From a virus: a DNA stretch of 20,487 bases. A program made the translations under genes and the position numbers. A model generated the notes under the pieces. It was not told the DNA's origin. It was given only the letters and a program-made list of their open reading frames with translations, and did not search any database. The stretch lies in IMG/VR virus record IMGVR_UViG_3300034101_000837, positions 1 to 20,487 of that record. The stretch is one strand, 5' to 3'. Shown in pieces: positions 10,746 to 19,350 of the stretch; within the stretch, counting starts at the first letter, position 1; each line of letters begins with the position of its first letter.

Positions 10746-11844
10746 CGAACGCAGTGGATTGCCGTCAGCGTCCGCAGCGAGCCGCTACGCTGCTTGTCTC
10801 GGAAGTTGGGATCTGGAGCGTCAAGTTGCGGAGGTTGAATCAACCGGAGATGCTGCGATTGGGAACCGCATCCACGCTGCACTTGCGCTGGAGCCGGTAA
10901 CCAACCTCACCACCGATGAGACTTGGATCATTGACCGTTGCAGGGAGCAGGAACTTGAATTGGTCAAACAGACCTTTGGTGAGCTTGAGACCAACTGCTT
11001 CCGAGAGAAACGGCTTTGGTCGCTGACTCAAGATGGAGAGCGACTCTGGAGCGGAAAACCTGATGTCATCTACACCGCCAACGATGAAGGAATGCTCTAC
11101 GGGTTGATCATCGACTACAAGAGCGGTCGTGGAGCCGTAGAGAGCGCAGCGGAGAACCTCCAGTTGCGCTGTCTGGTTGCGCTGCTGGATGAGTCTTGGG
11201 GATTCACGCTTGATCGGGTTACGGTTGCAATCATCCAGCCTTTAGCGGGACCTCCGAGTGTGTCGGTCTACGAGTCGTCAGACATTCATTCAGCCATCAT
11301 GGAAGCAAATGGACTGATGAAAGAGATTCAGAAAGTTGGTCAACCGCGCACTCCGTCAGAGTCCGCTTGCAAGTACTGCAAAGGAAAACCCTATTGCTCC
11401 GAAGCGCGGGAGTTGGCCGTTGCTCCTCCGCTGACCAATGCACCGGAAGGCATAACTCCAGACGCTATTGCTGCGACGTTGACCAACCAGACGCTTGCAG
11501 CATTTCTTGATCGTGCAGCACAAGCGGAGGCTGTCATCGAAGCTTGTCGCGCAGAAGCTCGACGGAGATTGAGCGAAGGGGACGCAATCGAAGGTTGGAC
11601 GCTCAAAGAAGGATCGGTGCGCGAGTCTATTACGGATTCCGAAAAGGTTGCGTCTCGGTTCTTGGAACTCGGGACTTACGAACAGTTGAGTCCCGCAATC
11701 ACGCTGAACAAAACGAAGCTCAAAGATGCTCTGAAGGTTGCGACTGGAACCAAAGGTCGCGACTTGGAATCAAAGCTGGATCAACTGCTTGCTGGCTGCA
11801 CTGAAAGCAAGACCTCACAACCCACACTTACGAAGATCAAATGA
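10738..11844 (+). CDS. PD-(D/E)XK exonuclease, DUF2800/Cas4-like, probable Fe-S protein
   Basis: ATG at 10738; 368 residues. The N-terminus SAASRYAACLGSW supplies Cys20, followed by GNRIHAAL (His46), GKPDVIY (Asp109), the catalytic core LIIDYKSG (Asp126-x-Lys128) and a QLR motif (142-144). Three more cysteines follow in CKYCKGKPYC (211, 214, 220). One N-terminal and three C-terminal cysteines around a PD-(D/E)XK core is the Cas4/AddB arrangement that holds a 4Fe-4S cluster. The C-terminal ~130 residues are helical (AAQAEAVIEACRAEARRRL) and end basic. As partner of Bet, it probably resects double-strand ends to expose single strands, in place of lambda Exo. Confidence 0.85.
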   Translation: MSDERSGLPSASAASRYAACLGSWDLERQVAEVESTGDAAIGNRIHAALALEPVTNLTTDETWIIDRCREQELELVKQTFGELETNCFREKRLWSLTQDGERLWSGKPDVIYTANDEGMLYGLIIDYKSGRGAVESAAENLQLRCLVALLDESWGFTLDRVTVAIIQPLAGPPSVSVYESSDIHSAIMEANGLMKEIQKVGQPRTPSESACKYCKGKPYCSEARELAVAPPLTNAPEGITPDAIAATLTNQTLAAFLDRAAQAEAVIEACRAEARRRLSEGDAIEGWTLKEGSVRESITDSEKVASRFLELGTYEQLSPAITLNKTKLKDALKVATGTKGRDLESKLDQLLAGCTESKTSQPTLTKIK

Positions 11845-17128: not shown

Positions 17129-17203
17129 GAATAAGCAGTCAGCGCAAGCCGTAGGAAGCAAGCGTTGACACACCATACCTGAAGCCATGTTCAACCAACT
17201 TTT

Positions 17204-17267
17204 CCCCACCCTTTCCGTGACACGTCCCGTCGCTTCAGCGGGAGTTCCTACCACGGTCTGGGTGGGG
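17204..17267 (+). promoter_or_regulatory. Long stable hairpin before replication gene
   Basis: CCCCACCC (17204-17211) pairs with GGGTGGGG (17260-17267). After a symmetric 3x3 internal loop (TTT/TCT) the stem resumes as CCGTG (17215-17219) with CACGG (17252-17256). The apex holds a smaller hairpin, TCCCGT/GCGGGA (17225-17230 with 17238-17243, one G-U pair). The element ends 14 bases before the replication gene's ATG and is followed by TTTCTGTTTG. It could be a terminator with an unusually long loop, a translation-controlling leader or part of an origin. It accounts for most of the 153-base interval; TTGACA at 17165-17170 has no good -10 partner. Confidence 0.5.
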
Positions 17268-17281
17268 TTTCTGTTTGTTAC

Positions 17282-18058
17282 ATGAACGAAGACAAGAAAA
17301 CCCGTAAGGCTCCAGCGTTTCAATTATACACCGATGACTTCCTAGCTGGGACCATCGAAATGTCCCAAGAAGAAGTTGGTCAATTCATCCGACTTCTTTG
17401 CCACCAATGGAACCGCGGTTCAATTCCGGTTGAAACCGAAAAGCAACAGCGGTTAGCTGGCGGTTGCGTATCGGTTGACGTGTTGGCTAAGTTTGATTAC
17501 TGCGAAGATGGTTTGCTTAGAAACAAAAGGCTTGAGTCCGTTAGAACCGAAAAGGGCAAGTTTTTGCAGAGCCAATCGGCAAAAGGCAAGTTATCCGCGG
17601 AAAAACGCAGATTGGAGGCTCTGGAACGTCAAAGTCAATCCAACCAAAATTCAACCGCGGTTGCACCGGTGTTGCAACCGGATGATCAACCGGACACCCA
17701 ACCGGAATCCAACTCTCCATCTCCTACTCCTAATAAGAAAGATACAGCGTCTCCGAAGTCGCCGTGGGATGTTGGCTTCGGTGTTGAGTTGCCAAACAGC
17801 TTTCAGACAGAGAACTGTCTTCAAGCCGTCAAACTCTGGCTTCAGTACAAATCGGAGCGTAAAGAGGGATACAAGAAGACTGGACTCACAGCATCACTCA
17901 CTAAGTGGTCCAACGAGTTTTCCCCTGCCGAGTTCCCATCTGCTGTTGAGAACTCAATCGCTTCTGGTTGGAAAGGGATATTCCCAACCGGAAAGCAGCA
18001 TCAACAACCTCAAGCCAAATCCGTCAACCTCAGCCTTAACATTGAGGACTACCAATGA
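17282..18058 (+). CDS. DUF1376-type replisome organiser / helicase loader
   Basis: ATG at 17282; 258 residues. The N-terminal domain APAFQLYTDDFLAGTIEMSQ followed by EEVGQFIRLLCHQWNRGSI and DGLLRNKRLESVRTEK is the DUF1376 (YdaU-like) fold, a winged-helix DNA-binding domain of phage replication initiators. A disordered linker (about 118-156) rich in Gln, Pro and Ser separates it from a C-terminal domain (WLQYKSERKEGYKKTG ... NSIASGWKGIFP) that matches the part that contacts helicase. It overlaps dnaB by 4 bases. By analogy with lambda O/P or DnaD-like loaders it would bind the origin and load DnaB. The linker DNA holds a repeat array. Confidence 0.82.
   Translation: MNEDKKTRKAPAFQLYTDDFLAGTIEMSQEEVGQFIRLLCHQWNRGSIPVETEKQQRLAGGCVSVDVLAKFDYCEDGLLRNKRLESVRTEKGKFLQSQSAKGKLSAEKRRLEALERQSQSNQNSTAVAPVLQPDDQPDTQPESNSPSPTPNKKDTASPKSPWDVGFGVELPNSFQTENCLQAVKLWLQYKSERKEGYKKTGLTASLTKWSNEFSPAEFPSAVENSIASGWKGIFPTGKQHQQPQAKSVNLSLNIEDYQ
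17652..17710 (+). repeat. Iteron-like CAACCG repeats inside replication gene (candidate origin)
   Basis: Five ~12-base units run head to tail: CAACCGCGGTTG (17652), CACCGGTGTTG (17664), then CAACCGGATGAT (17675), CAACCGGACACC (17687) and CAACCGGAATCC (17699). The first unit is a perfect palindrome. Units at 17652 and 17675 lie in different codon frames, so the repeat is not explained by a protein-level Gln-Pro repeat alone. Inverted copies (CGGTTG) occur upstream at 17427, 17461 and 17472, and AACCGCGGTT recurs at 17411. A pyrimidine-rich then A+T-rich stretch follows (about 17710-17750). This layout resembles the lambda origin inside gene O. Confidence 0.5.
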
Positions 18059-19350
18059 ACGATCCGTTTTACGCTGTAGACGACGAATTTGCCGTCATTG
18101 GTTGTTGCCTCAACGGTGGGGTTGATACCTGCTCCGATGCGTTCGCTGAGATCCAGACTTCAGCGTTTCAGACCGAGACTCTGGCGATGACTTTCGACGT
18201 ATTGAAGTCACTGGTCGCTGAGTCCAAGCCGATTGCGCTTCCCGAAGTCATGCGGGAATGGAAGAAGGCATTCGCTTCAAATCCGGTCCCGTTTGAAGAC
18301 TGGAACAAAGCGATGGAAGCATCCCCGTCACCGGCAAGCTATCCGATGTTTGCCAAAGGTGTTCTTGAAGCCGCTCACCGTCGCCAGCTACGAATCGCTG
18401 GAGACCGTCTATTGAGGGAGTCCGCTGTCTCCACCCTCAGCGTCGATCAAATCGTCTCTAATGCCGAACAGGGGCTTGCCATTGATGCCTCCAAAGAGAC
18501 GCTTCAACCTGCAAAGTCTGTTGTTGGGCGATTCATCGACGCAACCCAAGAGAGATTTGAACGAAAGGGTCAACTCTCTGGCATCACTTCTGGCTTCTAT
18601 CGGCTCGATGAAATGACCGACGGGTTCCAGCTTGGAGAATTGGCGATTTTGGCCGCTCGTCCATCCATCGGTAAGACCGCAATGGCGATTGCCTTTGCTC
18701 AAGCGGCTTCCGTCATTGGTAAGGTTCCCACGCTGTTCGTCTCGCTTGAGATGTCTGACGAATCAATCGTCCGTCGTATGGTCTCAACTATCGGGTCAGT
18801 CCCGATGGGTGACATACGCACCGGCAACATGACCGAAGGTGGGATGAAGTCCATGAGTCACGCTTGCTCTCGGATCGCATCCAGTCCGCTCCATTTTGTG
18901 TCTGGTTCATCTGTAAGCAACATCGCAGCAATCACTGCAACCATCCGTCGAGCGGTTCGCAAGTGGGGAGTTAAGCTCGTTATAATCGACTACCTGCAAA
19001 AGATCCACGGTTCCAAGTCTGCCGAGAAACGTACATATGAGATCGCGGAGGTCAGTGGACGACTCAAGAGCATTGCAACCGAATGTAAGGTTGCTGTGGT
19101 CTCACTGGCGCAACTCAACAGAGAGAACGAGAAAGAGAAGGGCAGATCACCCAAACTGACTGATCTCGCAGACTCCGGACAGATAGAGCGTGACGCTGAC
19201 CTAGTGATGCTCCTTAACCGAGACCGCTCCCAGAAGTGCGGTGAAGCAATCATTGCCATCGCGAAGCAGCGTGACGGTGAATGTGGAGCCGTAAAGCTAT
19301 GGTACGACGGTCAGTATTGCCGCTTTGGCGAGATTGCCCCCGATACTTAA
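18055..19350 (+). CDS. dnaB: Replicative DNA helicase, DnaB family
   Basis: ATG at 18055 overlaps the loader gene by 4 bases; 431 residues, slightly shorter than the bacterial ~450-470. N-terminal helical domain (EFAVIGCCLNGG ...), linker, then the RecA-like core: TSGFYRLDEMTDGFQLGE, Walker A ARPSIGKTA (201-209), LFVSLEMSDE and Walker B VKLVIIDYLQ (Asp312). The H4-type AQLNRENEKEKGRSPKLTDL and the final RDADLVMLLNRD motifs are intact. It forms the hexameric ring that unwinds DNA at the fork. The phage thus supplies its own helicase and loader; no primase or polymerase is seen in the window. Confidence 0.93.
   Translation: MNDPFYAVDDEFAVIGCCLNGGVDTCSDAFAEIQTSAFQTETLAMTFDVLKSLVAESKPIALPEVMREWKKAFASNPVPFEDWNKAMEASPSPASYPMFAKGVLEAAHRRQLRIAGDRLLRESAVSTLSVDQIVSNAEQGLAIDASKETLQPAKSVVGRFIDATQERFERKGQLSGITSGFYRLDEMTDGFQLGELAILAARPSIGKTAMAIAFAQAASVIGKVPTLFVSLEMSDESIVRRMVSTIGSVPMGDIRTGNMTEGGMKSMSHACSRIASSPLHFVSGSSVSNIAAITATIRRAVRKWGVKLVIIDYLQKIHGSKSAEKRTYEIAEVSGRLKSIATECKVAVVSLAQLNRENEKEKGRSPKLTDLADSGQIERDADLVMLLNRDRSQKCGEAIIAIAKQRDGECGAVKLWYDGQYCRFGEIAPDT

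Follow-up and report, generated by a model that had tools for sequence, protein, structure and literature searches.

Two iteron arrays inside a DUF1376-type initiator gene suggest a replication origin embedded in the gene of an uncultivated phage

We analysed a window of 20,487 bases, the whole stretch of a record from an uncultivated phage, in which recombination genes (for a Bet/RecT-like annealing protein, an exonuclease and RusA) are followed by a metallophosphoesterase gene, by a DUF1376-type gene and by the gene of a DnaB helicase (Table 1). The start of the helicase gene overlaps the stop of the DUF1376-type gene, an adjacency expected of an in-gene origin. A single weak relative was found in a bacterial MAG. 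At 11734-11775, in a gene region, a 19-bp unit is repeated in tandem, with about two copies present.

Table 1. Features of the initiator locus (window coordinates)
Feature	Position	Strand	Basis or remark
Conserved RNA hairpin upstream of initiator gene	17204..17267	+	fold z, covariation
Initiator gene, 258 aa: DUF1376 N-terminal domain, disordered linker, C-terminal domain with putative helicase-recruitment role	17282..18058	+	Pfam, PHROG, model
Predicted winged-helix DNA-binding domain, codons 12-82	17315..17527	+	AlphaFold2, structural matches
Recognition-helix region, about codons 61-72	17462-17497	+	within predicted winged helix
Iteron array 1	17411..17477	+	CG-to-CG steps 10-13 bp; synonymous valley gene nt 136-165, p=0.001
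Members of array 1	AACCGCGGTT 17411-17420, CGGTTG 17427, AACCG 17434, CGGTT 17450, CGGTTG 17461, CGGTTG 17472		
Iteron array 2	17652..17704	+	steps 9-12 bp; synonymous valley gene nt 367-396, p=0.001
Members of array 2	CAACCGCGGTTG 17652-17663, degenerate CACCGG 17664, CAACCG 17675, 17687, 17699		
Pyrimidine-rich then A+T-rich stretch, candidate unwinding region	17712..17746	+	stability bin
DnaB-type replicative helicase gene	18055..19350	+	Pfam DnaB_C E 7e-74

The protein of the DUF1376-type gene matched Pfam DUF1376 (PF07120) with an E value of 3.9e-6 and 27.6 bits, slightly below the cut-off of 30.1, which was passed by relatives of classes D, E and H (Table 2); near-identical relatives reached 30.2 together with neighbouring matches. 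DUF1376 was the sole Pfam family matched at E <= 0.01; neither Phage_rep_O (the N-terminal domain of lambda O) nor RepA_N gave a match. The PHROG matches were to a primosomal protein (phrog_9327, E 6.8e-15) and, over residues 88-243, to the O-like phrog_678 (E 3.6e-5), and the labels on relatives were those of primosomal or initiation proteins. The first-pass annotation had described a loader gene of the DUF1376 type; the family assignment stands, just under the cut-off, while the gene is more aptly described as that of an O-like initiator than as a loader.

The AlphaFold2 model of the class-A protein had a mean pLDDT of 70, with residues 21-90 forming a block at 80-89 and linker residues 123-156 lying below 50. 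Its secondary elements (H12-24, H29-45, H52-59, H65-68 and E78-80) provide helices and a wing that fit a winged helix. The structural matches of this model were weak (best Z of 5.1) and mostly to winged-helix domains; those of the class-B model were better (best Z of 7.4) and included a plasmid initiator, a Rep-DNA complex and DnaD, with a Z of 6.0 and 5.7 against the initiator structures 4pt7 and 5kbj, respectively, which reflects a common fold only. Foldseek gave no PDB match at E <= 0.001, and a sequence search of the PDB likewise returned nothing useful. The two predicted models support a DNA-binding fold, not family membership.

Exact CAACCG or CGGTTG was found nine times in the gene, at 17652, 17675, 17687, 17699 and 17985 on the plus strand and at 17427, 17461, 17472 and 17658 on the minus strand, the copy at 17985 standing alone, apart from both arrays. 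Array 1 overlaps the codons of the predicted winged helix and array 2 those of the linker, which the annotation had taken to be disordered and which the low pLDDT of the model suggests is so. The three inverted copies that it had listed (17427, 17461 and 17472) are exact matches and the palindrome AACCGCGGTT is indeed present at 17411 and 17653. Four of its five units of about 12 bases were recovered (17652, 17675, 17687 and 17699), whereas the fifth, at 17664, is one base off, with AACCG in the relatives (gene nt 383). Further AACCG/CGGTT cores were found at 17434, 17450 and 17545, the first two of which complete array 1; the division into two arrays, the helical-turn beat and the upstream hairpin also go beyond the earlier list. 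The CAACCG sites occupy all three codon frames (gene nt 146, 169, 180, 191, 371 and 394), and the earlier argument that copies in different frames favour selection at the DNA level agrees with both the codon shuffles and the synonymous constraint described below.

Since CAACCG also occurs elsewhere in the window, as had been pointed out, its clustering was compared with codon-preserving controls, made either by permuting synonymous codons within the gene or by drawing codons according to the usage of the window, 5,000 of each kind. The results showed that the nine copies in the DUF1376 gene exceed the means of 2.7 (permutation) and 2.0 (window usage), none of the 10,000 controls reaching nine, so that the proposed enrichment over such shuffles is borne out. 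AACCG was present 14 times against 5.5 and 3.8 expected (0/10,000), and AACCGCGGTT twice against 0.06 and 0.04, a count reached by 3 and 1 of 5,000 shuffles. The whole window held 39 copies of CAACCG versus 10 after dinucleotide shuffling, and the background excess is mild because the other genes jointly hold 19 versus 11.8 under codon shuffling. The DUF1376 gene was by far the strongest in the gene-by-gene comparison (9 versus 2.62), the best p values among the 18 other genes being 0.03-0.05, in a few, and the densest 300 bp of any hexamer within the window was that of CAACCG in this gene. With a statistic covering all hexamers and with size-matched controls, 27 of 34 class-A genes and 22 of 23 class-B genes were at the floor (p<=0.005), as compared with 0/60 helicases and 1/60 upstream ORFs; this unbiased test was weak in classes C (2/6 at the floor), D (3/21) and E (0/14), as well as in F, G and H. 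The repeats thus cluster within the initiator gene beyond coding expectation.

Comparison of the iteron codons with the other codons showed that reference-based synonymous diversity was lower in the iterons in 6 of the 6 classes tested, with 0.067 versus 0.277 in class A (p=3e-5), 0.063 versus 0.312 in class B and 0.026 versus 0.324 in class D. A scan blind to the words, which used only synonymous diversity in ten-codon windows with p values against shuffled positions, placed the two lowest windows at gene nt 136-165 and 367-396 in class A, 406-435 and 199-228 in class B, 106-135 and 367-396 in class C, and 172-204 and 349-381 in class D. These valleys lie over arrays 1 and 2 in four of the six classes tested (A, B, C and D; p from <0.001 to 0.025), class E being partly consistent and class G non-significant. 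Array 1, in winged-helix codons, was constrained as much as array 2, and the iterons are therefore conserved at the DNA level, as in-gene origins are.

Searches in which the initiator and helicase proteins served as queries recovered 150 loci with 108 distinct initiator genes, which were sorted into eight classes by word (F by protein), an assignment made after the words had been inspected (Table 2). Words other than CAACCG (ACGCGTG, CTCGCGAG, CATATGCC, GCGACCCCAAT and GGGTTAACCCA) occupy the same gene parts, in some cases beside helicases that are 99% identical. In all 34 class-A genes CAACCG occupies fixed positions, within gene nt 130-219 and 338-424, that are separated by about one helical turn, and this lattice is kept in L001 and L059 despite different linker proteins; the positions are thus conserved in relatives through both synonymous and amino-acid divergence of the linker, a check that the first-pass annotation had proposed. 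The ACGCGT steps of class B are 11 bp or multiples (gene nt 192, 203 and 214; 362, 373 and 395), those of class C are 10 (119, 129 and 139) and those of class D are mostly 12. Classes E and H, whose domains are 72-86% identical in sequence, may be one group. A class-C contig of 35.4 kb (G005, with loci L148 and L181) contains five copies of CTCGCGA, of which four form a cluster at 28384-28604.

Table 2. Word classes of the initiator genes
Class	Word	Genes	Relation
A	CAACCG	34	DUF1376
B	ACGCGTG	23	weakly resembles C and F
C	CTCGCGAG	6	weakly resembles B and F
D	CATATGCC / CCACCGCAT	21	DUF1376
E	GCGACCCCAAT	14	DUF1376
F	no clear iteron	3	weakly resembles B and C
G	GGGTTA	5	stands apart from other classes
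H	ATGGCCA	2	DUF1376

Each word type tracks one clade of N-terminal domains and not the helicase. N-terminal identity was 61% or more within classes and at most 63% between them, E-H excepted, and among locus pairs with helicases at least 95% identical, 245 differ in class and 126 share it. DNA identity to the window breaks at the initiator start codon and resumes either at 17751, past array 2 and its tract (L088 of class C and L089 of class G), or near 18010 (L083 and the B and F loci). Comparison of the class A, D and E consensus sequences showed an identity of 63-100% in the N-arm and the first two helices and of 27-36% in the strand, recognition-helix region and wing, as expected if the variable part sets specificity, although the overlapping iterons could also drive this divergence. 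The domain and the iterons are physically linked, so their association is by itself no proof of binding. The C-terminal part of the initiator (17751-18058 and homologues) exists in at least three sequence types, paired with different N-terminal classes. In classes B and C, the hairpin region and the initiator start are separated by several hundred bases that have no counterpart in class A (about 3620-4102 in L088; also upstream of the initiator in L145 and L130), and an additional small gene may move together with the module in these loci.

For the pyrimidine-rich and then A+T-rich stretch that the annotation had described after the second array, the 60-bp bin that begins 420 bases into the gene was the least stable of 45 in the class-A average, by a modest margin; the pyrimidine bias did not exceed codon shuffles in class A. 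A purine/pyrimidine tract was rejected as a universal feature: it was strong in B and present in C and G, but within the range of codon shuffles in A, D and E. GC skew, which had been suggested as a check, was uninformative, with no consistent extremum or clear switch at the initiator gene in the window and four longer contigs.

In-gene repeats were also sought in eight genes of cultured phages. Pseudomonas phage UFJF_PfDIW6, which encodes a 27.5% identical protein beside a DnaC gene, shares the two-array plan but uses another word, with CGTTGA at gene nt 183, 194 and 209 and again at 367, 375, 386 and 400 (0/400 shuffles), the second group being followed by a GAAGAGAAGAG tract. A weaker version of the plan is present in Vibrio phage VvAW1 (52% identity to the class-B domain), which carries the word of that class at both sites (7-mer maximum reached by 4/400 shuffles; 6-mers non-significant). 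Significant repeats were absent from the other six genes, five of them DUF1376-type (Paracoccus, two Pelagibacter, Acetobacter and Azospirillum phages) and the sixth from HK639, a class-B-domain relative, so that universality of in-gene repeats across DUF1376 was rejected.

We observed repeats in excess of codon-preserving expectation, synonymous constraint at both arrays and a word type that follows the N-terminal domain; the two arrays very probably constitute a phage replication origin embedded in its own initiator gene, and the candidate origin of the first-pass annotation is supported by both the codon-shuffle enrichment and the conserved spacing. The predicted N-terminal winged helix would bind the AACCG-core iterons, about one helical turn apart, in both arrays, and an initiator oligomer would form across them. 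This complex would melt the modestly weak DNA directly after array 2, near 17712-17746, and the C-terminal domain would recruit the DnaB helicase from the next gene.

Alternatively, the repeats could be operators through which the N-terminal domain represses or autoregulates its own operon while replication starts elsewhere; autoregulation is conceivable for a winged-helix protein whose gene contains its sites, and many of the fold matches are transcription regulators. However, both arrays lie within coding sequence, array 2 more than 350 bases past the start codon, and the helical-turn arrays next to a DnaB gene, the primosomal and initiation labels and the precedents for in-gene origins favour replication; we consider operators unlikely, and binding could in any case serve both roles. 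That the words merely reflect a Gln-Pro rich linker and biased codons is hardly credible: CAACCG in frame does encode Gln-Pro, and other window genes share a mild excess, but codon-preserving shuffles fail to reproduce the excess, the words fall in every codon frame, synonymous variation is suppressed at the iterons and the words are retained in L059, whose linker protein is a different one. A Gln-Pro protein repeat or codon bias is thus rejected by both the codon shuffles and the comparison of synonymous diversity.

The words might also be targets of another factor (a partition, packaging or recombination protein) that hitchhike with the N-terminal swap, in which case physical linkage would explain the co-inheritance and the swap boundaries at module edges would be accounted for. 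Yet the word can change while the rest of the phage, helicase included, stays nearly the same. Such a factor would therefore be expected to be encoded by the exchanged segment, and that segment is the initiator domain; in addition, a distant Vibrio phage whose N-terminal domain is related to that of class B retains the class-B words. We regard this explanation as very improbable and retain an origin read by the initiator as the more probable reading.

In-gene iteron origins are already known from lambda (PMC6022878), SPP1 (PMC6316719), RepA_N plasmids (PMC5703833) and P22 and phage L (PMC8022706). The likening to lambda gene O made in the annotation was apt, P22 genes 18 and 12, phage L gene 18 and RepA_N plasmids being closer. 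Lambda shares iterons inside the initiator gene, adjoining weak DNA and initiator types differing in origin specificity, but it has four 18-bp inverted-repeat iterons in one cluster and recruits the helicase of the host through P (PMC6022878), whereas the window has two arrays with steps of 9-13 bp, one of them covering the DNA-binding domain, a DUF1376 N-terminal family and a phage-encoded helicase. In the passages on P22 and phage L, gene 18 likewise carries in-gene repeats and precedes the DnaB-type gene 12, phage L has six imprecise 11-bp repeats (TGTCCAACGGA) and each related phage has its own iteron; the repeat sequence differs from that of the window, one repeat region is described and these passages do not mention DUF1376 (PMC8022706). 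In the RepA_N plasmids pSK41 and pSK1 and the chimeric pPR9, an N-terminal winged helix recognizes boxes that lie within the rep gene, the linker is encoded by the origin, the C-terminal domain mediates interaction and N-terminal swaps occur naturally (PMC5703833); these are plasmids with a primase-binding C-terminus (PMC5703833), and the window protein is without a RepA_N domain. SPP1 has origin repeats (oriL) inside initiator gene 38, which encodes gp38, and a DnaB-family helicase, gp40, but also a separate loader, gp39, and a second origin, oriR (PMC6316719), where a single dense cluster was found in the window.

In the openly accessible literature, where five papers mention DUF1376, titles and abstracts gave no origin role for DUF1376 or YdaU, and as far as this literature shows, the DUF1376 assignment, the second array over the DNA-binding domain and the exchangeable cassettes look new, natural N-terminal chimeras being known among RepA_N plasmids (PMC5703833). 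DUF1376 and several unrelated N-terminal domains could be interchangeable origin-specificity cassettes, in each of which the DNA encoding the reader is one of two arrays of its own sites, a proposal that might equally well hold or fail. Because the domain-encoding DNA itself would bear the binding sites, reader and target would swap together as one stretch, and phage recombination would exchange origin specificity in one step. If so, these phages provide many naturally matched pairs of initiator and iterons, combined with helicases that hardly vary. DUF1376, named only as unknown in Pfam, gains a likely, testable function, and the several initiator classes and candidate words on near-identical helicases form a natural panel for the study of origin reading and specificity switching.

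The upstream hairpin, of which the main origin claim is independent, ends 14 bases before the initiator start codon and folds better than 200 shuffles (z -4.1). It is kept in 32 distinct sequences, with 99.0% of cells paired and 8 of 19 pairs changed on both sides (0/500 shuffles), and had no match in Rfam or in a phage collection; it is possibly a control element of initiator expression. A short open frame of 32 codons (17187-17285) spans the hairpin and overlaps the initiator start. By eye, a one-base length difference between relatives shifts this frame but leaves the hairpin intact, and selection therefore seems to act on the RNA.
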